This document shows, piece by piece, positions 12,986 to 25,118 of a stretch of DNA of 35,685 bases. The notes beneath the pieces are model-generated. The model did not search any database and was not told the DNA's origin. It worked only from the letters and a program-made list of their open reading frames with translations. The translations under genes were made by a program, and so were the position numbers. Location of the stretch: the NCBI GenBank assembly GCA_021413735.1, contig JAIOPV010000085.1, positions 1 to 35,685 of the forward strand. The letters are read 5' to 3'. This stretch comes from Planctomycetota bacterium (GTDB lineage Bacteria > Planctomycetota > Planctomycetia > Gemmatales > Gemmataceae). Positions within the stretch are counted from its first letter, which is position 1. Every line of letters starts with the position of its first letter.

Positions 12986-14815
12986 TTACTTCGCCTGGAA
13001 CGAGCCGATGTTCACGTTCTTGTCGAGTTCCATCTTGAACTCGTAGTCGATTGTGAGCGCCTTCTCGCCGTTCTGCTTCGGGTCGACGTTCACGTCCCAA
13101 CGCAGCAGCCCCTTGGTCTTCTCGTCGCGAACATACAGCGGATCGCTGCTGAGTTCGGGCTTCGGATCCTTCAAGCTGATGGCGATGGTCATGGTCGCTT
13201 CCGCGTGCGGCATCCGGTCCCACACCTGCACCGGCACCGGCGTGCTCTTGTAGCTCGTGAGCAGGATTCGGTACTTGAAGTTGAGGACCTGGTTGCCGCC
13301 CTGCGTCGTTCGCGTGCGGTCCACGAGGATACGCGAAACCTGCAACTGCGGATCAACCCCGAACCCAACCGTGAACGGCTTGCCAACCGCCACAAGCGGA
13401 ATCTTCGCCGAGCCGACAAAGTCGCCGCCAAGGTACATCGTCGCTTCGCCCGGCAGCAGGACGACATCGCTGTTGTTCACCATGTCGGCGAGGCGGTAGA
13501 CGTTCGAGGTCAGCACCGGAACGGCCTTGTAGTAGAACTTCGGAGCGAAATCGAGCTTCGTGATCTCGACCACTTGCTCGTCGTTGCGGCTCGGGATGGT
13601 CAGCTTCGGCTTGAGAACGTAGGTCACGCTTGGGCCGTCGTTGCCGCCTGGAACGGGACGGTGATCGGCCTTGATGAACTCATCGCTGCTGACAAAGAGA
13701 TCGCTGAACTGTTCGAGGGCGGCCGCGTCGTTTTGCTGCTTGGCGGCTTCAAAAGCATTCTTCTGCGCGTAGTTCCCGGCTGCCTGCCCGCGAAGCGATT
13801 TCGATTCCTTTTCCAGAGCTTCCTGGAACGCACGCGGGTTTGGCATGTTCGGTCCGCCAGCCCCCGGAACCGGCGCCGGAGCGCGGAGATCGCCCGGACC
13901 AACCGCGACAGCACCGCCACCAGCAGTGACACCAACGGCCAGCGACTTCAGATCGGGTGGCGAAGCGTTTAGCAGTGGTTGTGCGGTCGAAAGCGTGATC
14001 TGTGCGTTCGTCCAGTCTTCACCAGTCTTCTGTTCGATGGCTGCCTGGTACTCGACGACAACGGGATCTTTCTCCTTGCCACCGGAGCGGAACTTGTACT
14101 GCGGACGCCACGCGGCACCGCTGACGAGGTAATTCAGCTTGATGGTGCCGCCGCCGGCCTTCTTATCCACGAGGATCACAGCGTCGCGTTCATTGCGAAC
14201 TACGCCGCCAGATGCCTCATCATGTTGCCGCTTCAGAAACGCGATCTGGCTCACGATTTCTTCGAGCTGTTGCTTGACGAGGAGTTGTTCCTTGCTGCGT
14301 TTCGTGCGGTCTTCCTGCACGAACTTCGCCAGCGCGATGATCTTTTCGGTGTCGAGCAGCCCCTTGTCGGTCAGGTGTTCGAGCGACTTGGAGGTGAAGC
14401 CTTCCATCTTGTCGAGGAGCTTGAGGTTCTCGCCGATGGTCTTGAGTTCAGCTTCGAGCGATTGTTGTTTAGTGACCTGTGTCTTGATTTGCACGTCGAG
14501 TTTGCGAACGGCTTCGCGGGTATCCTCGGCGATGGCTCGCGTGCGATACCGGACGCTCAGGACGCGAATGTTGTCGTTGCCTTCAGCGTAAAGCGAGGTT
14601 TGCATCGTGTATGGCGGCATCGGGGAGACGACCACTTCCGTGAGACCGGCGGCTTCAGGCGCAGTGACTTCGCGAGTGACGAGTGCGTTGGTCGAGTAGA
14701 CGGTGACGGCGGTGATTTTGCTGGCTGCGGGTTTTGTTGCGTCGGCCTTTTCGTCGGCGCGAACGGTGGAAGAGAGAAGCACAGCGAGCGTCAGTAGCGA
14801 GAGCCGGAAAAGCAT
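12986..14815 (-). CDS. Exported DUF4140/DUF4139 protein (mucoidy inhibitor A-like)
   Basis: A 609-residue exported protein with a signal peptide (MLFRLSLLTLAVLLSSTVRA). Residues about 34-135 match the N-terminal DUF4140 domain (ITAVTVYSTNALVTREV). A helical, probably coiled-coil part follows at about 100-200 (QVTKQQSLEAELKTIGENLK). The DUF4139 domain fills about 215-600, with LNYLVSGAAWRPQY, EDWTNAQITLSTAQP and WDRMPHAEATM. Family members are known from animals to bacteria and their function is unresolved. A low-complexity Ala/Gly/Pro/Gln linker near 300-360 interrupts the domain. It lies downstream of the von Willebrand A gene on the same strand, but a strong palindrome separates them. Confidence 0.9.
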   Translation of the reverse strand: MLFRLSLLTLAVLLSSTVRADEKADATKPAASKITAVTVYSTNALVTREVTAPEAAGLTEVVVSPMPPYTMQTSLYAEGNDNIRVLSVRYRTRAIAEDTREAVRKLDVQIKTQVTKQQSLEAELKTIGENLKLLDKMEGFTSKSLEHLTDKGLLDTEKIIALAKFVQEDRTKRSKEQLLVKQQLEEIVSQIAFLKRQHDEASGGVVRNERDAVILVDKKAGGGTIKLNYLVSGAAWRPQYKFRSGGKEKDPVVVEYQAAIEQKTGEDWTNAQITLSTAQPLLNASPPDLKSLAVGVTAGGGAVAVGPGDLRAPAPVPGAGGPNMPNPRAFQEALEKESKSLRGQAAGNYAQKNAFEAAKQQNDAAALEQFSDLFVSSDEFIKADHRPVPGGNDGPSVTYVLKPKLTIPSRNDEQVVEITKLDFAPKFYYKAVPVLTSNVYRLADMVNNSDVVLLPGEATMYLGGDFVGSAKIPLVAVGKPFTVGFGVDPQLQVSRILVDRTRTTQGGNQVLNFKYRILLTSYKSTPVPVQVWDRMPHAEATMTIAISLKDPKPELSSDPLYVRDEKTKGLLRWDVNVDPKQNGEKALTIDYEFKMELDKNVNIGSFQAK

Positions 14816-14852
14816 GGGAATCAGGGGGTTTGGATTGTGGATGGAGAGCTGG

Positions 14853-14915
14853 GTTTAGCAACAGCCCCAGCGGGGCTGCGTCTGAGGCGCAGCCCCGCTG
14901 GGGCTGTTGCTAAAC
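14853..14915. repeat. Perfect nested palindrome, 28-base arms
   Basis: Arms 14853-14880 and 14888-14915 are exact reverse complements around a seven-base spacer. Each arm also contains its own small palindrome (CAGCCCCAGCGGGGCTG), so cruciform or clover-like folds are possible. It lies between the stop of the von Willebrand A gene and the start of the DUF4139 gene, and could terminate the former. Confidence 0.85.
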
Positions 14916-14928
14916 ACGTCGTTATCGA

Positions 14929-16134
14929 TTACTTCTTTTCGCCAGGAACCTCGAAGCCCTTGGTCTTGGCCTGATCGCGGATCAGCCCCTTGACCGCTTC
15001 ATCGAGAGCCTTTTCGCCGTCGGTCTTCGGCTTCTTGGCGAGTTCTTCCTCGACTTTCTTCGCACGCTTGGCGGAGAGGTCGGTGATCTTCTTCTGCAGT
15101 TCGGCCCGTTCTTCGGCCTTCTTCTTCAGGTATTCGAGCCGTTCTTCGGGCTTGAGCTTCTTGAGGTCGTCGCAGAGGTCTTCTTCCTTGACCTTCTTGA
15201 GGTCGAAGTCCTTCTCCTTCATCTTGTCCACGAGATCCCATGTGCTGTTGCGATACAGGGCGCCTGCCTTCGACTCAGCGCGAGCGATCGCGGCGACCTG
15301 CGGAGCGCCAGCAACACCAGGAGCGGCCTTGGCGTTCTCATCCTGCTTGAGTTGGTTCGCGGCGCGATCCTTGCCATCCTTGCCGAAAGCGACGTAGGTC
15401 TTGTTGAGTTCTTCGCCGAGCTTGACGATCTGTTCATCGAATTCCGTCTTCACAACGACCTGCTGCACGGCCTTGTTCTGGTCGATGGTCATGTGCTTGC
15501 CGCCGCACTTCTCGGAGAACCCGGCCCAGCCAGCGATTTCGTCATCGCGGCCGTACTTGCAGTAAATCGTGTTGATGAGGATGTCGTTCTTCTTGGCGAG
15601 AGCCGCGACATCTGTGAGGGTCACTTGCTTGTCCTGATCGGCCGGTTCGTTGCCGCAGACGAAGACGAGCTTCATCGCGTTCTTCTCGGCGCTCCACTTT
15701 TGTTCTTCGATTGCAGCCTTGCTGACGCGAGCGACGTATTCGGTGCCGCCGCCGATCGTGAGCGAATTGAGGGCTTTGTAAACGTCGTCGAGATCGACGG
15801 TCAGATCCATGTCCTTGCGAACCCAGCCCTTGTCGGCGGGGTAGTTGCTGTGGCCGTAGCTGTACAAGCCGACCCGCAGGTTCGGGGTGGGTTTCAGCTT
15901 GGCGAGTTCGTTGACGATGTCCCAGAGGCGAATCTTGGCCGAGTCGATCAGCCCGTTCATGCTTCCGGAAACGTCGAGACAGATGACGAGGTCGATTGCG
16001 GGGCCTTCCGCGACGACCGGAGCCGCGACTGGCTTTTCGGCGGGCTTTTCCTGAGCCCACACGGGCGCGACGACCACCCCGGCAAGCAGGGCAACTGCGA
16101 CGGAATAGGCGAATTTACGGAGCAAGGCAGACAT
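14929..16134 (-). CDS. Exported von Willebrand factor A domain protein
   Basis: A 401-residue exported protein. The signal peptide covers residues 1-27 (core AYSVAVALLAGVVVAPVWA). A VWA domain begins near 46, with the metal-binding DxSxS motif at 54-58 (DVSGS), followed by GLYSYG and GGGTEYVARV. The C-terminal third (about 290-400) is highly charged Lys/Glu helix, likely coiled coil. VWA domains bind ligands through a metal ion, and planctomycetes have many exported ones. The start at 16134 is chosen because AGGAGG lies just upstream; the open frame runs on to 17379, but that part is antisense to another gene. The gene is divergent from the lipoprotein gene at 16453. Confidence 0.9.
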   Translation of the reverse strand: MSALLRKFAYSVAVALLAGVVVAPVWAQEKPAEKPVAAPVVAEGPAIDLVICLDVSGSMNGLIDSAKIRLWDIVNELAKLKPTPNLRVGLYSYGHSNYPADKGWVRKDMDLTVDLDDVYKALNSLTIGGGTEYVARVSKAAIEEQKWSAEKNAMKLVFVCGNEPADQDKQVTLTDVAALAKKNDILINTIYCKYGRDDEIAGWAGFSEKCGGKHMTIDQNKAVQQVVVKTEFDEQIVKLGEELNKTYVAFGKDGKDRAANQLKQDENAKAAPGVAGAPQVAAIARAESKAGALYRNSTWDLVDKMKEKDFDLKKVKEEDLCDDLKKLKPEERLEYLKKKAEERAELQKKITDLSAKRAKKVEEELAKKPKTDGEKALDEAVKGLIRDQAKTKGFEVPGEKK

Positions 16135-16247
16135 TTCGACACCCTCCTGAGGAAACGCGGGCAACGAGCGAGTGAGCCACACCCTTCCGACGCGATTGTA
16201 ACCACCACGGATTGTGCCTGCTGTAACTTCTTGGTAACGCTCCATTT

Positions 16248-16363
16248 GGTGTTTAGTGTTTGGTGTTTCGTGTTTAGTTGGGTTGTTGGTCATCGTGCAC
16301 GCCAACTGAAACGGTGAGCCGAGTCGCTCAACACAAAACACAAAACACGAAACACCAAACACA
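16248..16363. repeat. Inverted arrays of a 7-base repeat in a divergent intergenic region
   Basis: Four tandem copies of NGTGTTT (16248-16275) face four tandem copies of AAACACN (16336-16363) across about 60 bases. Twenty bases (16256-16275 and 16343-16362) are exactly complementary. The 318-base gap between the divergent genes at 16134 and 16453 holds this element and presumably both promoters, which I cannot place with confidence. Confidence 0.75.
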
Positions 16364-16452
16364 AACCACGTTCCGGTTTTGTTCAAAGTTCCGACTGTGC
16401 GGGTGCCGAAAACTGTTCTGACGTGATCGAACCGAAGGATCCGGGGGAACAC

Positions 16453-17646
16453 ATGAAGCGGACCGCTACCACATTGGCATTGTTGGCCGGTTTCGGCGGC
16501 GGCTGCGTCGCCCCCGGCGGCTCGGCCTCCAAAGAACCCACCGGTGGGTTCGGGACTGTGTCCAAACCTCAGGCCGTCAAGGGCTACCAAGGGCCAAACG
16601 GCGAACCCGTGACGGCTGTTCGGGGCGCGATGCCCGACACACCCGTTCAGCAAGCGGCCATGTTCCGGAAGTACACGCCGGGACCGCAACTTGATCCGAA
16701 CAGTCGAGCGCAGATTCCGGGTACCGTCAACACGGCGGCCTGGAATGCGGCTTCGGCGAATGGGGTTCGTCAGGTGAACTTCATGGCGGGTGCCGGCTGC
16801 GGTCCAGGCTGTGCTCCCGGTGGCGGATACGGTGGCCCTCCTCAGGGCGGCCCACCGAACGGCGTCTACCCGGTTCCCGGAATGGGACCGCCCGGAGCCG
16901 TTGCTGCGGTCGGCGCAATGGTCGGTCCTGGCGGACCCACCGGAGCAACCCCGAACGGTCGCGCTTCGGTCAAGTTCACCAGCCCAGCGGGCATGAAGGT
17001 GACCTGGCAGTTGCCGAACGGCGGCTTCAACGATGAAGCCACCGGGTTGACCACGCCAAAGGAATACAACTTCCTCCAGGGTCAGGTCTATCGCTTGCGG
17101 TTGACGCAGATTCTGCCGAACCACCCGGGCAAGGCGTTCTACCCAACGCTTGAAGTGTCGTCGGGCAACCCGAAGACGGTGTCGTTCCTCGCTCACGCGT
17201 GCGTGCCGATCACGTTCACGAACGACGACTTCGACCACGCCGTTTCCGGCAACCTTGTCGTGAAGGTGATCTATCTGCCGGATCGCGACAACCAGGATTT
17301 CCTGGCGCTCGGCGGTGGCCTCGAAGAAGTGAACTCGACGCGGCTTGAGCCGGGTGTTGATCCGGTTGCCGAAGCCCAACGCAAGGGTTCGGTTCTCGCG
17401 ATCATCCGGCTCGGTAACATCGATCTTGAGAATCGTGTGTCTCCGGTGATGACCGCTCCGCCGCCTGGTGGCCCGATCATGTTGGGACCGCCGACCGCAG
17501 GTGGTGGTGGCGAGATGGGTGCTTACCCGCCCGGTATGAGCAGCGTCGGCAACGCTCCGCTTCTGCCGCTGGCTCCGGGGAACGGCCCAGGCCCGCGACC
17601 ACTGCCACCTTCGGCCCCGCCGGCTCTGCTGCCGCCCGTGAAGTAA
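16453..17646 (+). CDS. Pro/Gly-rich lipoprotein, paralogue of next gene
   Basis: A 397-residue lipoprotein. The signal peptide ends in a lipobox GGGC (Cys 18). Residues about 110-165 are Gly/Pro/Cys-rich (GAGCGPGCAPGGG) and contain the phrase YPVPGMGPPGAVAA. A globular part at about 170-330 follows (VKFTSPAG, FLQGQVYRLRL, HAVSGNLVVKVIYLPD, GSVLAIIRLGN). The C-terminus is again Pro/Gly-rich. The next gene shares both the YPVPG phrase and the globular part, so the two arose by duplication. The ATG at 16453 follows GGGGGA and is preferred to the GTG at 16423. Function unknown; an outer envelope role is inferred from the lipobox. Confidence 0.85.
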   Translation: MKRTATTLALLAGFGGGCVAPGGSASKEPTGGFGTVSKPQAVKGYQGPNGEPVTAVRGAMPDTPVQQAAMFRKYTPGPQLDPNSRAQIPGTVNTAAWNAASANGVRQVNFMAGAGCGPGCAPGGGYGGPPQGGPPNGVYPVPGMGPPGAVAAVGAMVGPGGPTGATPNGRASVKFTSPAGMKVTWQLPNGGFNDEATGLTTPKEYNFLQGQVYRLRLTQILPNHPGKAFYPTLEVSSGNPKTVSFLAHACVPITFTNDDFDHAVSGNLVVKVIYLPDRDNQDFLALGGGLEEVNSTRLEPGVDPVAEAQRKGSVLAIIRLGNIDLENRVSPVMTAPPPGGPIMLGPPTAGGGGEMGAYPPGMSSVGNAPLLPLAPGNGPGPRPLPPSAPPALLPPVK

Positions 17647-20475: not shown

Positions 20476-21369
20476 TCACACCACCGCCGGTTTACTTCGC
20501 CAGAGATTCCAGAGCAATCCACGAGCGCTGCCGAACAAAAGCGACACCACCACGAGCGTACTCGCGATGAGCACAATCGTCGGTCCGGTTGGCACGCCAG
20601 CCTTGTAGTGGTCGCCCAGATGGTGAGCCAGGAACGTGCCGCCCGCACCGGACACAGCACCAAAACCAGCCGCCAGCAACACCATGATCCCGAGTCGATC
20701 CGTCCATTGCCGGGCAGCTGCGGCCGGAGCTACGAGCAACGCCGTCATCAGCACAACTCCAACAGCCTTCAGCCCAATCACCACTGCCACCACAGTCATG
20801 GTCGTGAGGAGCAGATCGAGTCTGCGAACTGGTAACCCGATGCTTGCGGCGTAATCCGGGTCGAACGTCAGCAACTTCATTTCTTTCCAGGTCAGCGCGA
20901 GGACGAGCAGAACGACGGCGCCAAGGCCACCGATCACCCAGAGATCGGGCTCACGGAGGTTCGCGGCTTGCCCGAAGAGGTAGCGGTCGAGCGGGTTCGC
21001 ACTGGCACCCGGCACGGATTGAGCCTGCCTCATGAGAGCCAGACCAAGCCCGAAGAACACCGCGAGTGTGCCCCCGAGCGCAGCATCGACAGGAACACGC
21101 GACCGTCGGCCCACGACACCGACCATCACAAGCGCGACCCATCCGGCGACGGCTCCGCCGAGGACGAGCAACAACGGCGACCGTGCCCCGATCAGGAACG
21201 CGATGGCGACACCGGGCAACGCCGCGTGCGAAATGACATCGCCCTGAAGACTTTGTCGGCGGAGGAGTGCGAAGCACCCCACGACCCCGGCAGCAACGCC
21301 GAGCAACGCCGCCCCAGGCGCGACCGTCCGCAGCGCAGGAACATCGAACAGGGACAAGAATTCGCTCAC
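20476..21369 (-). CDS. ABC-3 family metal permease (Zn/Mn type)
   Basis: A 297-residue inner-membrane permease of zinc/manganese/iron ABC importers (ZnuB, MntB, TroC family). It has about eight hydrophobic segments and typical family phrases: LLRRQSLQGDVISHAALPGVAIAFL near residues 35-60, then DAALGGTLAVFFGLGLALM, LDRYLFG and, near 200, VGLKAVGVVLMTALLVAPAAAARQWTDRL. The GTG start overlaps the stop of the kinase-like gene as GTGA, so translation is probably coupled. No ATPase or substrate-binding protein gene lies nearby, so its partners must be encoded elsewhere if it transports metal. Metal specificity cannot be read from the sequence. Confidence 0.93.
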   Translation of the reverse strand: MSEFLSLFDVPALRTVAPGAALLGVAAGVVGCFALLRRQSLQGDVISHAALPGVAIAFLIGARSPLLLVLGGAVAGWVALVMVGVVGRRSRVPVDAALGGTLAVFFGLGLALMRQAQSVPGASANPLDRYLFGQAANLREPDLWVIGGLGAVVLLVLALTWKEMKLLTFDPDYAASIGLPVRRLDLLLTTMTVVAVVIGLKAVGVVLMTALLVAPAAAARQWTDRLGIMVLLAAGFGAVSGAGGTFLAHHLGDHYKAGVPTGPTIVLIASTLVVVSLLFGSARGLLWNLWRSKPAVV

Positions 21370-23348
21370 TTCTTGGCGGCCTCCGCGAGCAACTTCTTCA
21401 CTTCTGGATTGTCCTTGAACGGGCCGAAGTCAGCGTTGTCGATCAGGCTCGGTTTGGACACTTGGGCAGAGGGAAATCGCCAGCCGCCCTCCACGGCAGC
21501 ACGCAGCGTCTCGATCGCTTCCGTCAGGTATTCTTCCTTCTCCTTCGCCTCTTCCGCATTCGGCGGGTTCGGAACGGATGCGGCCAGCAACGCGAAGTCT
21601 CCCGCGATCAACCGAAGTTGATCGACACTCTGAACACGCCCCTTGGCGTCTTGAAGAGTTCGTTTGGCCTCCTGCCGTCGCCCCAAGGCACGATAAACAT
21701 CGGCTAGCGCTTCAAGGTGCAAGAACAGGTTTCCTCTCCAGAACGGCCTTTCTCCAGGCTCGGCAGCACTCATCCCCAACCGGTCAAGTTTCTCAGCTTC
21801 AAGCAGCAGCGGAAGTGCCTCGGTTGCCTTTCCGTGTCGGGTGAGCATCGCAGCACGATGCGCCAACGACGTGGTGAACTGAGCAGCGGCCTGAAGATCA
21901 TTGGGATTCTCAGTCACAGCCGGTCGGATCACTTCCACAGCCTCGCGATACAACTCGGTCGCTTCTGCGTGCAATCCCTGCTTCTCGAACCTGTTCCCCG
22001 TTGTCACGAACGCGGCCGACAGCCGAACTCGCATGGAGAATGTCGTCTGCGGAGACGCTGCCGCACGGCGGCACGCAGCGAGTGAATCGAGCATCACCTG
22101 GCGACTCGCGGCATCGGCGGGAAGTTGCGGATTCTGTGCGGACACCAGCGAGATCAGATCGGCAGCATGACCCGCGAGTTCCTGAAGCGTTTGGTCTGCC
22201 GTCCGGTGTCCTGTCGTCGCTTCGTCGGCGCGTTTTCTCTCCGTCATCTGGACTTGTTCGGCGCGAGCGCGAGCCATCTCAGCCTCGGCCGCACGATGCT
22301 GTTCCATCATCTCCGATTCTTTCGCAGCCGCAAAGTGCGTCTGGGCCTTCTGCCACATCAAGTAGAAACCAACCAGTCCCACGACTGTGAGCGTCAGCAT
22401 CCCCGCGAGAAATGTCGCCGCGACGTTGTGCCCGCGAACCCACTTCACGAACCGCTCGCCCAGACCAACGTCTCGGGCATTCACGGGTTCGCCCCCAAGA
22501 AACCGCGTCAGATCGTCGGCCAGTTCGGTCGCGGATGGATACCGTTCGGTCGGGCTCTTCTTGAGGCACTTCAGGCACACCGATTCGAGATCGCTCGGCA
22601 AATCAGGCACCAACTGCGTGGGCAACTCTGGGCTCGCGTTGCAAATCGCGTTCACGAGTTCGGTGACACTCTCAGCCGGAAACGGTCGGCGACCGGTGAT
22701 GCACTCATACAGAATGACGCCCATCGCCCACACATCGGCGGTCGGGCCGACGAACTTGGTTGTTCCGGTGATTAACTCGGGAGCGACATACGCGGGGTTT
22801 CCCACGGCGACAGCGGAACCAGTCCGTTGATAAGTGGAACCCAGATTCGCAACCTTCGGTTCTTCGGCTTGATCGAGAAGAATGTTTGCGGGTTTCAGAT
22901 CGCCATGCACGATTTGCTGAGCGTGCGCGGCTGCGATTCCACGAGCTACGCCAATCAGCAGCAGCGCGGCCGACTTGGCGGTCATGCGGCCGACATCCCG
23001 AAGGTGGTTGGCGAGCGTGCCGCCAGAGACGAATTCGAGGGTCAGGATCGACTTCCCCTCGTGTTCCGTGGCGTCGTAGATTTGCACCACATTCGGATGA
23101 CACACGCTGGAAACCGCGTCGGCTTGAGCCCGCAGTCGAAGCAACTCTCGCGGATTGCCGCTGCGAATGATCTTGATGGCAACGATGCGGTTCAGCCCGT
23201 CTTGTCGAGCTTCGTAGACAATGTTGTTTCCACCCCGACCGACCACGCGAAGAAGTTGGTAGCCTGGAATGGCTCCGAGCGGTTCGTCGGCCTGCGGTGT
23301 GGGTTCGACATCGGATTCGTCCGCGGCATCGGTGGCATCGATAGACAT
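21366..23348 (-). CDS. Membrane-anchored Ser/Thr kinase-like protein, degenerate active site
   Basis: A 660-residue protein. A PknB-type kinase domain spans about residues 30-285: Gly loop GRGGNNIVY 37-45, ATP Lys 59 (VAIKII), HGDLKPAN 148-155 with catalytic Asp 150 and Asn 155, GNPAYVAPE, and DVWAMGVILYE 205-215. Three signature residues differ: the alpha-C Glu is Gln 75, HRD is HGD, and DFG is NLG (Asn 168). A membrane segment lies at about 311-332. A long, mainly helical C-terminal region follows, with TPR-like pairs of helices (ATELYREAVEVI, EALADVYRALGRRQEAKRTL). The ATG at 23348 with GGAG upstream is preferred to an upstream extension. Its stop overlaps the permease start. It may be a weak kinase or a pseudokinase. 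Confidence 0.9.
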   Translation of the reverse strand: MSIDATDAADESDVEPTPQADEPLGAIPGYQLLRVVGRGGNNIVYEARQDGLNRIVAIKIIRSGNPRELLRLRAQADAVSSVCHPNVVQIYDATEHEGKSILTLEFVSGGTLANHLRDVGRMTAKSAALLLIGVARGIAAAHAQQIVHGDLKPANILLDQAEEPKVANLGSTYQRTGSAVAVGNPAYVAPELITGTTKFVGPTADVWAMGVILYECITGRRPFPAESVTELVNAICNASPELPTQLVPDLPSDLESVCLKCLKKSPTERYPSATELADDLTRFLGGEPVNARDVGLGERFVKWVRGHNVAATFLAGMLTLTVVGLVGFYLMWQKAQTHFAAAKESEMMEQHRAAEAEMARARAEQVQMTERKRADEATTGHRTADQTLQELAGHAADLISLVSAQNPQLPADAASRQVMLDSLAACRRAAASPQTTFSMRVRLSAAFVTTGNRFEKQGLHAEATELYREAVEVIRPAVTENPNDLQAAAQFTTSLAHRAAMLTRHGKATEALPLLLEAEKLDRLGMSAAEPGERPFWRGNLFLHLEALADVYRALGRRQEAKRTLQDAKGRVQSVDQLRLIAGDFALLAASVPNPPNAEEAKEKEEYLTEAIETLRAAVEGGWRFPSAQVSKPSLIDNADFGPFKDNPEVKKLLAEAAKK

Positions 23349-23919
23349 CAAGCGGCTCCGTGGTGCTACTGGTTCAGAGTATCCGCACAGGATGACAAAC
23401 GGAATGGGCACCAAGCGTGTTGTGACCGCAACGCCGCAAGCGGCGAAGTGGAACACTGGAAAAAGTTCATCCGACAGCAGGGATTGCTGCCAAAGCGAGC
23501 AGTTCGCAATTGCGGAAGGTTTCACGGGATCTTTAAACGGTGTGGGCAACCGACGGTAACTTCAGGAGTTGCGGCGATGGGCGTTGCAAAACTGAGAACT
23601 CGGCATCGTGGTTGCTTATTCCCGATTCAGAAGAACTCCCCGCCCCTTCCGTTTTGGGCAGTTGAGCGGTCTGGAAGACTCACAACTTGATCCTGAACGG
23701 TCTCTCCGATTGCGGCTCACGAGAGCCGCTTCGTCCGTGATGTGGTTTGGAGCGTGTCGTTGTGAAGCAAGGCGAACCGGGCGTAAATCCTGGATTCACT
23801 CACAAGCTTCATCCTCGGACAACGAATCCTTACCAGCAGCCAGATACGGTAAGCCTGCCGGATGTTGCCCGTGCGACATCCATCCTGCATCCGCATCGTC
23901 CCCAACCGGAGACGCCACC
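23349..23919. other. 571-base divergent intergenic region
   Basis: No convincing gene lies here. It holds a short copy of a dispersed repeat core (23431-23447). A possible 37-codon reading frame at 23577-23690 has AGGAG upstream but no recognisable features. It presumably contains the promoters of the kinase-like gene and the small exported-protein gene. The frame continuous with the latter runs back to 23608 but reads as non-protein-like sequence. Confidence 0.5.
23431..23447. repeat. Short copy of a palindromic repeat core
   Basis: ACGCCGCAAGCGGCGAA matches the centre of one arm of the palindrome at 9352-9408 and is itself partly self-complementary (CGCCGC/GCGGCG). It could be a remnant of that family, or chance in GC-rich DNA. 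Confidence 0.35.
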
Positions 23920-24393
23920 ATGATGACCTTCCGCACCGCTGCGATTTTCTTGATGATTCCCGTGGCCGCTTTTGCCGCCAACTCGGAGTGGGGAGCGTCG
24001 CTTGTCGTTGATATGTTCCACCCCCAGAGCGTGCGAGAGGAACTCAAAAACGAAGAGGAATTGAGTGAGAACCTCGAAGTCGTCAACCGAGAGATTCAAC
24101 GCCGAATCGCGATCAAGGAGGCGCTCGTCGCTGAATTGATTGCGGGCCGGACCACTCTCGCCGCCGTTTCCGACGAATTCCTCGCGCTCAATCGACCCCG
24201 ACAAGAGTACATGACGATCATCCGGGCGACTTACCCAGGGAACACCGACGAAGAGAAATCGGCCCACAATGTGATCGGCTACGTCACCGGGGAATTGGTT
24301 CGATACCCACAGGCCACGCGGGACGAAGTTCTTGCTCGCCTTCAGTCTGAGCTTCAAACTCTTCCTCGCACACAGAAGATCGCGACCCACTGA
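23920..24393 (+). CDS. Small exported protein, paralogue of next gene
   Basis: A 157-residue protein with a signal peptide (MMTFRTAAIFLMIPVAAFA, cleavage near 20). The mature part is helical and charged: EELSENLEVVNREIQRRIAIKEALVAELIAGRTTLAAVSDEF in pattern, then a Pro-containing turn and a second helix, RDEVLARLQSEL. The motif GR-x-TLA-x3-DE, and the ends IxxV...L...P..R..V.ARL..E, are shared with the next gene. I remember similar small proteins as multi-copy families in Gemmata-like genomes; function unknown. GGAG lies 8 bases before the ATG at 23920. Confidence 0.78.
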   Translation: MMTFRTAAIFLMIPVAAFAANSEWGASLVVDMFHPQSVREELKNEEELSENLEVVNREIQRRIAIKEALVAELIAGRTTLAAVSDEFLALNRPRQEYMTIIRATYPGNTDEEKSAHNVIGYVTGELVRYPQATRDEVLARLQSELQTLPRTQKIATH

Positions 24394-24581
24394 ATCTCAT
24401 TTCGCCCAGTTCACGGGATTGACCATCTATCGACAGAATAACTAATATACGATTCTTCGCATTGAACAAAACTGTTGAATCACTCGCGCTCACGGACAAA
24501 ATAATGTCCATATCAATTGTGCTGACGCTTGCTTTGCTTGAGTGAGTCGATTATGATTCGTCCTCATTGGTCAGGAGAGAC

Positions 24582-25118
24582 ATGATCCAAGTCAATCCCT
24601 TCGCCCACGGCAAACAACCGCCGTTGAACGGGGATGGCTCAGGAGGATTGCCCATGGCCGCCCAACGTGCAGGTACCGTTTCTGTTGCGACTTTGTCTGG
24701 GCTTGTGCTGACTCTCGTGGCGGCGGAGCTTCTCGCCCCTCGGTGGGTTCAGAGCCTGGGACTGGATGTCTGGAACTTCCACGCGCTGCGCGAGGAAGCT
24801 CGAATCACTCGTGAGCACTCTGTTGCGGTTGAGGCAGAGCGGGTTCGATTGAGGCGCGAGGTTGAGGCCTCGGGGCACACTGCCAACCGGCTCATTGATG
24901 GAAGAATTACCCTCGCCGACGCGATCGACGAACTGGAACCCATCCTTCAACACCGTGTCGGGTTTGAATGTGCGTGGCTGCAAGACCCACCACCAACCTT
25001 TCGGCACTCGGTGGCTCGCTACATCATCAACCGAGTGGAAGCGACGCTTGAGGCCAAGCCTGAGCAACGGACTGTGGTCTCCGCCAGACTCAAAGCCGAA
25101 TACGACGCGTTGAAGTGA
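24582..25118 (+). CDS. Membrane-anchored paralogue of the preceding gene
   Basis: A 178-residue protein. A cytoplasmic N-terminus of about 30 residues is followed by one hydrophobic segment (about 31-50, VATLSGLVLTLVAAELLA), then a charged helical part with GRITLADAIDELEPIL and a C-terminal VARYIINRVEATLEAKPEQRTVVSARL in pattern. The conserved positions are the same as in the exported neighbour, so the two are diverged paralogues with different targeting signals (cleaved signal versus anchor). AGGAG sits seven bases before the ATG. The 188 bases upstream are clearly more AT-rich than the surroundings and probably hold its promoter. Confidence 0.78.
   Translation: MIQVNPFAHGKQPPLNGDGSGGLPMAAQRAGTVSVATLSGLVLTLVAAELLAPRWVQSLGLDVWNFHALREEARITREHSVAVEAERVRLRREVEASGHTANRLIDGRITLADAIDELEPILQHRVGFECAWLQDPPPTFRHSVARYIINRVEATLEAKPEQRTVVSARLKAEYDALK

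Follow-up and report, generated by a model that had tools for sequence, protein, structure and literature searches.

A putative membrane receptor pseudokinase with three forms of active-site loss in a small Gemmataceae-like clade

We analyzed a 35,685-nucleotide stretch of Planctomycetota bacterium DNA (family Gemmataceae; assembly GCA_021413735.1, contig JAIOPV010000085.1, positions 1 to 35,685; hereafter the window) and focused on a minus-strand open reading frame at 21366–23348. Its 660-residue product (the window protein) combines a degenerate kinase domain, one membrane helix, and a tail resembling tetratricopeptide repeats (TPRs). We consider it probable, from its sequence and those of its relatives, that the protein is a single-pass membrane receptor pseudokinase of a small, lineage-specific Gemmataceae-like clade, in which the kinase fold would survive as a module for docking or allosteric control. 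The frame of this gene, its coordinates, and the residue numbering were all verified, and features are listed in Table 1.

Active-site residues were placed by a phmmer alignment to Mycobacterium tuberculosis PknB and by a family alignment of 189 domains. Both alignments bore out an initial annotation, made from the sequence alone, which had read Gln75 in place of the alpha-C Glu, HGD in place of HRD, and NLG in place of DFG, with Lys59, Asp150, and Asn155 remaining. Its list of missing signature residues was right as far as it went but overlooked a fourth departure, Asn42 at the third glycine of the ATP loop. The window protein also retains Lys152, the first two ATP-loop glycines, and an intact VAIK motif, and its KPxN motif reads KPAN. 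Pseudokinases have been defined as lacking one or more of the beta-3 Lys, the HRD Asp, and the DFG Asp (PMC12599244); the window protein falls within this definition, with Asn168 for the DFG Asp. The same substitution makes it fail the rule for functional planctomycete kinases applied in PMC11032199, under which this Lys/Asp/Asp set is present.

Table 1. Positions in the window of the pseudokinase gene, its parts, and the adjoining permease gene
Feature	Position	Strand	Remarks
Pseudokinase gene	21366..23348	-	660 aa, ATG start
Leader before ATG	23349..23409	-	conserved in G016, partly in G022
Kinase-fold domain, residues 29-286	22491..23264	-	Pfam PF00069; AlphaFold; PknB/PknA structure match
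Asn42 replacing third glycine of ATP loop (GxGxxG)	23223..23225	-	Gly in G016, Ser in G022
Lys59 (ATP lysine, beta-3)	23172..23174	-	retained in all three orthologues
Gln75 replacing alpha-C Glu	23124..23126	-	His in G016, Arg in G022
HGD (148-150) replacing HRD	22899..22907	-	HGE in G016, FGS in G022
NLG (168-170) replacing DFG	22839..22847	-	DFG in G016, NGA in G022
Short activation segment, residues 168-191 (24 residues)	22776..22847	-	paralogue median 30
Single membrane helix, approximately residues 308-329	22362..22427	-	hydropathy
Long helix/coil after membrane helix, to residue 405	22134..22361	-	AlphaFold helix 308-405
TPR-like helical tail, residues 390-660	21369..22181	-	strong matches only in clade of three among genomes searched
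ABC-3 metal-transporter permease	20476..21369	-	GTG overlaps pseudokinase stop by 4 bases, in G016 too

Each of our genome searches scored a limited number of candidates per genome. Full-length orthologues were found in two of 94 other genomes of the family, labeled G016 (60% identity) and G022 (47% identity over residues 16–660). A search with the tail across 95 family genomes, the window's own included, gave four matches: the same three proteins and a weak one in G032 (3.3e-8), whose retrieved region encodes a kinase domain with the six signature residues intact. With a tail profile we recovered the same three and no further member in 102 genomes of the order, and the window's own genome alone in 392 genomes drawn evenly from the phylum. 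A scan of named genomes returned 24 kinase relatives, among them one Gemmataceae relative at 42%; none matched over the full length.

All three members have lost the alpha-C Glu, carry Gly at the HRD Arg, and have a short activation segment; in each, the order is kinase fold, one membrane helix, and TPR-like tail. Further losses differ from member to member. G016 has HGE, KPGN, and an intact DFG, and it keeps the third loop glycine. G022 is reduced to FGS, to NGA, and to GTRD at KPxN (no catalytic Asn), with Ser at the third loop glycine; it also lacks the catalytic-loop Lys and two of the three ATP-loop glycines. The HRD Asp position therefore reads D, E, and S in the window protein, G016, and G022, respectively, the DFG Asp is gone from G022 too, and Lys59 is the sole one of six surveyed signature residues (the ATP Lys, alpha-C Glu, HRD Arg, HRD Asp, catalytic-loop Asn, and DFG Asp) kept throughout. 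At the three positions singled out by the initial annotation for comparison among orthologues, Gly149 is invariant and residue 75 is never Glu (Gln, His, or Arg), but residue 168 varies (Asn, Asp, or Gly). No orthologue combines the Glu with DFG: the one that has DFG is without both the Glu and the catalytic Asp. We rejected a sequencing slip or local oddity, as the sites of degeneration in the two orthologues overlap with those of the window protein.

In a tree of 63 kinase domains the three members form a single nested clade (support 100/99) on a long stem (0.53), and the nearest rows to it (L011 and L015) are fully canonical. The tree pairs G016 with G022 (100/90); the G022 branch is long (1.1), and the alternative pairing of the window protein with G016 was not rejected (p-AU 0.394, approximately unbiased test). 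Because the losses of the alpha-C Glu and the HRD Arg are common to all three members, both residues were probably already gone in the common ancestor. In a second stage the separate members would then have lost different further residues: the DFG Asp in the window protein, the catalytic Asp in G016, and nearly everything in G022. That one family holds three different forms of loss argues that its shared function would not need catalysis.

We surveyed the window's own genome (9.8 Mb in 293 contigs, 95.74% complete) for paralogous kinase domains. It holds at least 175 kinase matches; 150 of 201 candidates were scored, and the survey, seeded with matches to the window protein, is one from which very distant kinases are missing. 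Besides the window protein it yielded 151 distinct domain hits, of which 22 incomplete ones were dropped and 129 cover all key columns. All six signature residues are intact in 118 of these; eight domains lack one, two lack two, and one lacks four. The window protein, with three of six lost, thus ranks second most degenerate against the 129 paralogues. Retention by residue was 128 for the Lys, 124 for the Glu, 122 for the HRD Arg, 129 for the HRD Asp, 128 for the Asn, and 127 for the DFG Asp, and 127 domains pass the Lys/Asp/Asp rule. The third ATP-loop glycine is Gly in 124 paralogues and Asn in none. The activation segment is 24–25 residues long in the three family members versus the paralogue median (24 or fewer in two of 129), and the distance between Lys59 and position 75 is 16–17 residues versus 20 in paralogues (17 or fewer in six of 129).

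The HRD Arg is not known to have a catalytic role. Its replacement, which the initial annotation had counted among the signature losses, is real but is also seen in seven of the 129 paralogues, six of them with the Lys/Asp/Asp set intact, and we rejected it as a standalone sign of inactivity. The survey brought up two other unusual domains. L169 (G000:C27:39324-41551; domain residues 98–382) is, by its residues, strongly degenerate, the second such kinase domain in this genome: Arg replaces both the beta-3 Lys and the alpha-C Glu, HRD reads HGD, and the DFG Asp is Glu. In L091 (G000:C63:57217-61349) the catalytic-loop Asn is replaced by His and the DFG Asp by Gly, with the other four signature residues intact.

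We then compared conservation of the catalytic loop and activation segment with that of the domain remainder, using 155 non-query domains of sufficient length (134 in counted pairs), with four motif columns excluded and no selection by motif. Among paralogues the catalytic segment is more alike than the remainder (comparable pairs average +0.11 to +0.13). The window protein–G022 pair scored −0.13 (0 of 1249 comparable pairs as low), the G016–G022 pair −0.20 (0 of 837), and the window protein–G016 pair −0.04 (two of 46); these counts are not probabilities, the paralogue pairs sharing sequences and not being independent. An earlier control limited to paralogues with intact motifs (0 of 50, 0 of 1283, and 0 of 917 as low) was replaced by this unselected one, as that choice favors the result; without motif selection it was the window protein–G016 pair that weakened. 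The added conservation usually seen in the catalytic segment is gone, clearly so in the G022 pairs and mildly in the window protein–G016 pair.

The ratio of nonsynonymous to synonymous change (dN/dS; NG86) between the window gene and G016 is ∼0.22 for the kinase domain and 0.18 for the tail, rough values given that synonymous changes are near saturation. Because both ratios lie at ∼0.2, this comparison indicates that kinase domain and tail are both maintained under purifying selection. Residues 605–660 are the most conserved among the parts compared, with 79%, 70%, and 68% identity across the three members.

The degenerate domain is still recognizable as a kinase. Pfam Pkinase (PF00069) matches residues 30–276 (E = 7.1e-46), and all three members pass its cut-off of 31.7 bits (157.2, 155.5, and 78.4 bits). 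AlphaFold models most blocks of the domain at a predicted local distance difference test score (pLDDT) of 90–98, with a weak spot (56) at residues 171–180 in the activation segment, and the best structural matches are PknB and PknA (Z 34; 33% and 29% identity). A single helix spanning residues 308–405, membrane helix included, leads into the helical tail in a whole model whose predicted template modeling score (pTM) of 0.51 makes the relative placement of the parts unreliable. Folded alone, the tail reached a pTM of 0.83 (three sequences), and its best matches are TPR structures (Z up to 17.5; 3.6 Å over 215 residues), a likeness of helical repeats that says nothing of function. By sequence, TPR_14 is the one TPR model to exceed its cut-off, by a narrow margin (23.8 vs. 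23.5 bits) and only when the window protein's tail is the sole query; no TPR model passed in scans of the full-length proteins or of the tails of G016 and G022.

The positively charged flank of a membrane helix generally lies inside the cell (the positive-inside rule). Because there is, by eye, more positive charge before the membrane helix, on the kinase side, than after it, the kinase domain is predicted to lie inside. The domain is thus probably cytoplasmic and the tail probably periplasmic, as is predicted more broadly for receptor kinases of this architecture in planctomycetes (kinase inside, TPR mostly periplasmic) (PMC11032199). The initial annotation had suggested a scaffold working through its membrane anchor and helical tail; the predicted anatomy (one membrane helix, a long coil, and a TPR-like tail) would suit such a role.

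We propose that the domain on the cytoplasmic side, still with its kinase fold and ATP lysine, has lost the residues for efficient phosphotransfer, and that it would act as a docking or allosteric partner, perhaps of one of the at least 127 paralogues with the Lys, HRD Asp, and DFG Asp. The one-helix anchor and long coil, suited to dimerization, would join this domain to a tail that may bind a protein or peptide. Going further, the family might be a bacterial counterpart of HER3, whose dead domain would pair with an active sibling kinase and switch it on upon ligand binding to the tail. This extension is speculative and we give it a small chance; if true, three species would preserve three forms of active-site loss in one receptor.

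Several points weigh against a receptor pseudokinase that has given up catalysis. The family has only three known members. The loss of conservation in the window protein–G016 pair is only mild, and both the overlap among paralogue pairs and the near-saturation of synonymous changes blunt the selection analysis. By sequence, the retained Lys59, Asp150, Lys152, and Asn155 make residual or metal-independent activity possible. CASK, without the DFG Asp, still phosphorylates (PMC2686265, PMC4718504), and HER3, in which His replaces the Glu and Asn the catalytic Asp, undergoes trans-autophosphorylation in vitro (PMC4718504).

In a CASK-like reading, the window protein would be a weak or metal-altered kinase, slow in phosphate transfer and able to bind ATP when Mg is scarce or absent. 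The initial annotation had offered this beside the scaffold pseudokinase. It would draw on the residues that remain (the same four and the first two loop glycines), on a domain modeled in the normal kinase fold, and on the CASK precedent (PMC2686265, PMC4718504). However, the window protein is also missing the alpha-C Glu, has Asn42 at the third loop glycine, and has a shortened activation segment, and because both orthologues are without the catalytic Asp (Glu in G016, Ser in G022), the family's function can hardly rest on such chemistry. We therefore regard a weak kinase as unlikely: as an account of the family the metal-altered half of the earlier suggestion is weakened and the pseudokinase half is supported, although the former may still apply to the window protein, which has Lys59, Asp150, and Asn155.

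Somewhat more doubtful is a noncatalytic nucleotide-binding switch, in which ATP in the pocket would reshape the domain and thereby alter how it binds partners, in the manner of HER3 or STRAD-alpha. The lone survival of Lys59 in all three members would fit such a switch. Although each is without key residues, HER3 is a tight binder of ATP and STRAD-alpha binds the nucleotide in the absence of Mg, and Asn residues in the glycine loop of ILK contact phosphates (PMC2686265, PMC4718504). Against this, G022 is without the catalytic-loop Lys, the Asn, and two of three loop glycines, making nucleotide binding doubtful there.

The gene neighborhood raises a further possibility, that the protein regulates the adjoining metal ABC permease with which it would be co-translated, as the 4-base stop/start overlap in the window genome and G016 could suggest. 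In G022, however, pseudokinase and permease are on different contigs. The upstream neighbor differs as well: it is selB in G016, with genes for a glycosyltransferase and a pterin-binding-like protein (Pfam) also upstream, and the pterin-binding-like gene (Pfam) in G022, where selB and glycosyltransferase frames, recognized by eye, lie beyond; neither selB nor the pterin-binding-like gene lies in the window. At another locus (L077) the permease is instead preceded by a cation-efflux gene, and by eye several further permease loci are similar. The permease link is common to two of three members and is not a stable clue, and we consider a regulator of the permease very unlikely. Least plausible of all is simple decay, in which a kinase gene without any role left would be turning into a pseudogene: motif loss, most advanced in G022, and the narrow distribution (three of 102 genomes of the order) would agree with decay, but all three members have full-length open frames, and dN/dS near 0.2 (G016 pair), a strongly conserved tail, and a conserved leader speak against it.

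The receptor pseudokinase gene most likely starts at the ATG at 23348, with an in-frame TTG upstream at 23549 as the alternative. We favor the ATG because the DNA just 5′ of it is kept between species and because G022 has an in-frame stop there, shortly before the ATG (alignment read by eye). That the leader travels with the pseudokinase gene suggests a transcription start of its own; a sigma-70-like promoter was sought in the leader region and none was found.

Other observations concern the surroundings. The arrangement of the selB, family-2 glycosyltransferase, and pterin-binding-like genes (L064 3195-7431 and L065 4492-8729) is reversed between G016 and G022, which looks like an inversion. 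Directly beside the permease at 20476-21369 we saw neither an ATPase nor a binding-protein gene, in a search that covered part of the other window genes; the permease at L077 precedes a second ABC-3 permease. Two adjacent plus-strand genes (23608-24393 and 24567-25118) encode small proteins without a Pfam match that are alike by eye around GR-x-TLA and are perhaps a tandem pair. The local AT skew at 14001-16000 (−0.26) is the largest in the window table, and this segment partly covers a VWA-domain gene (14929-17379).

Among known systems, PknB-type Ser/Thr kinases (PF00069) have the same fold (∼33% domain identity) with Glu, HRD, and DFG where the window protein has Gln, HGD, and NLG. Its architecture is that of the planctomycete TPR-tailed single-pass receptor kinases (kinase, one membrane helix, and TPR repeats in the C-terminal part) as described in PMC11032199; unlike them, it fails the Lys/Asp/Asp rule, and its tail is divergent, with strong matches only in its own clade. 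Kinases that fail this rule are already known in the phylum, since 610 putative and 525 probably functional kinases are reported by it for Candidatus Uabimicrobium amorphum (PMC11032199).

Bacterial pseudokinases are a recognized kind, largely unexplored experimentally (PMC12599244). The described ActPs1-3, GLW, CP1, DYD, and DLHK have a degenerate fold, are often membrane-linked, and in some cases have a short activation loop, as here; a difference is that the beta-3 Lys is kept in our family (PMC12599244). Compared by these descriptions, the features we tested fit none of ActPs2, ActPs3, GLW, and DLHK. ActPs2 has Arg for the beta-3 Lys and Asn for the HRD Asp, whereas Lys59 is kept here and the HRD Asp position is D, E, or S; ActPs3 shows complete degradation of catalytic motifs and an activation-loop deletion, whereas Lys59 and Asp150 remain and only G022 comes near. 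GLW pseudokinases have GLW for HRD and Leu or Trp for the beta-3 Lys, against HGD and Lys59, and DLHK pseudokinases have no membrane region and a degraded ATP motif, against one membrane helix and an intact VAIK (PMC12599244). DYD pseudokinases have Arg for the Lys, and the window protein does not (PMC12599244). A text search of that paper's main text found no mention of planctomycetes, and among the matches listed in our searches of the literature on bacterial, membrane, and planctomycete pseudokinases, no description of the three-member family was found.

The three members also recall three eukaryotic pseudokinases (PMC4718504, PMC2686265), a likeness that, as an analogy, is one of convergence. 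G016 resembles HER3, with His for the Glu, the catalytic Asp lost, and DFG kept; the window protein resembles CASK in the loss of the DFG Asp; and G022, with nearly all lost, resembles STRAD-alpha but keeps the ATP Lys, which STRAD-alpha is without. While the receptor plan stays constant, the active site has been lost by three routes within a single orthologous set, and the at least 127 paralogues with an intact Lys/Asp/Asp set can serve as controls. Domain swaps within the family could ask which noncatalytic property of the kinase fold selection keeps.

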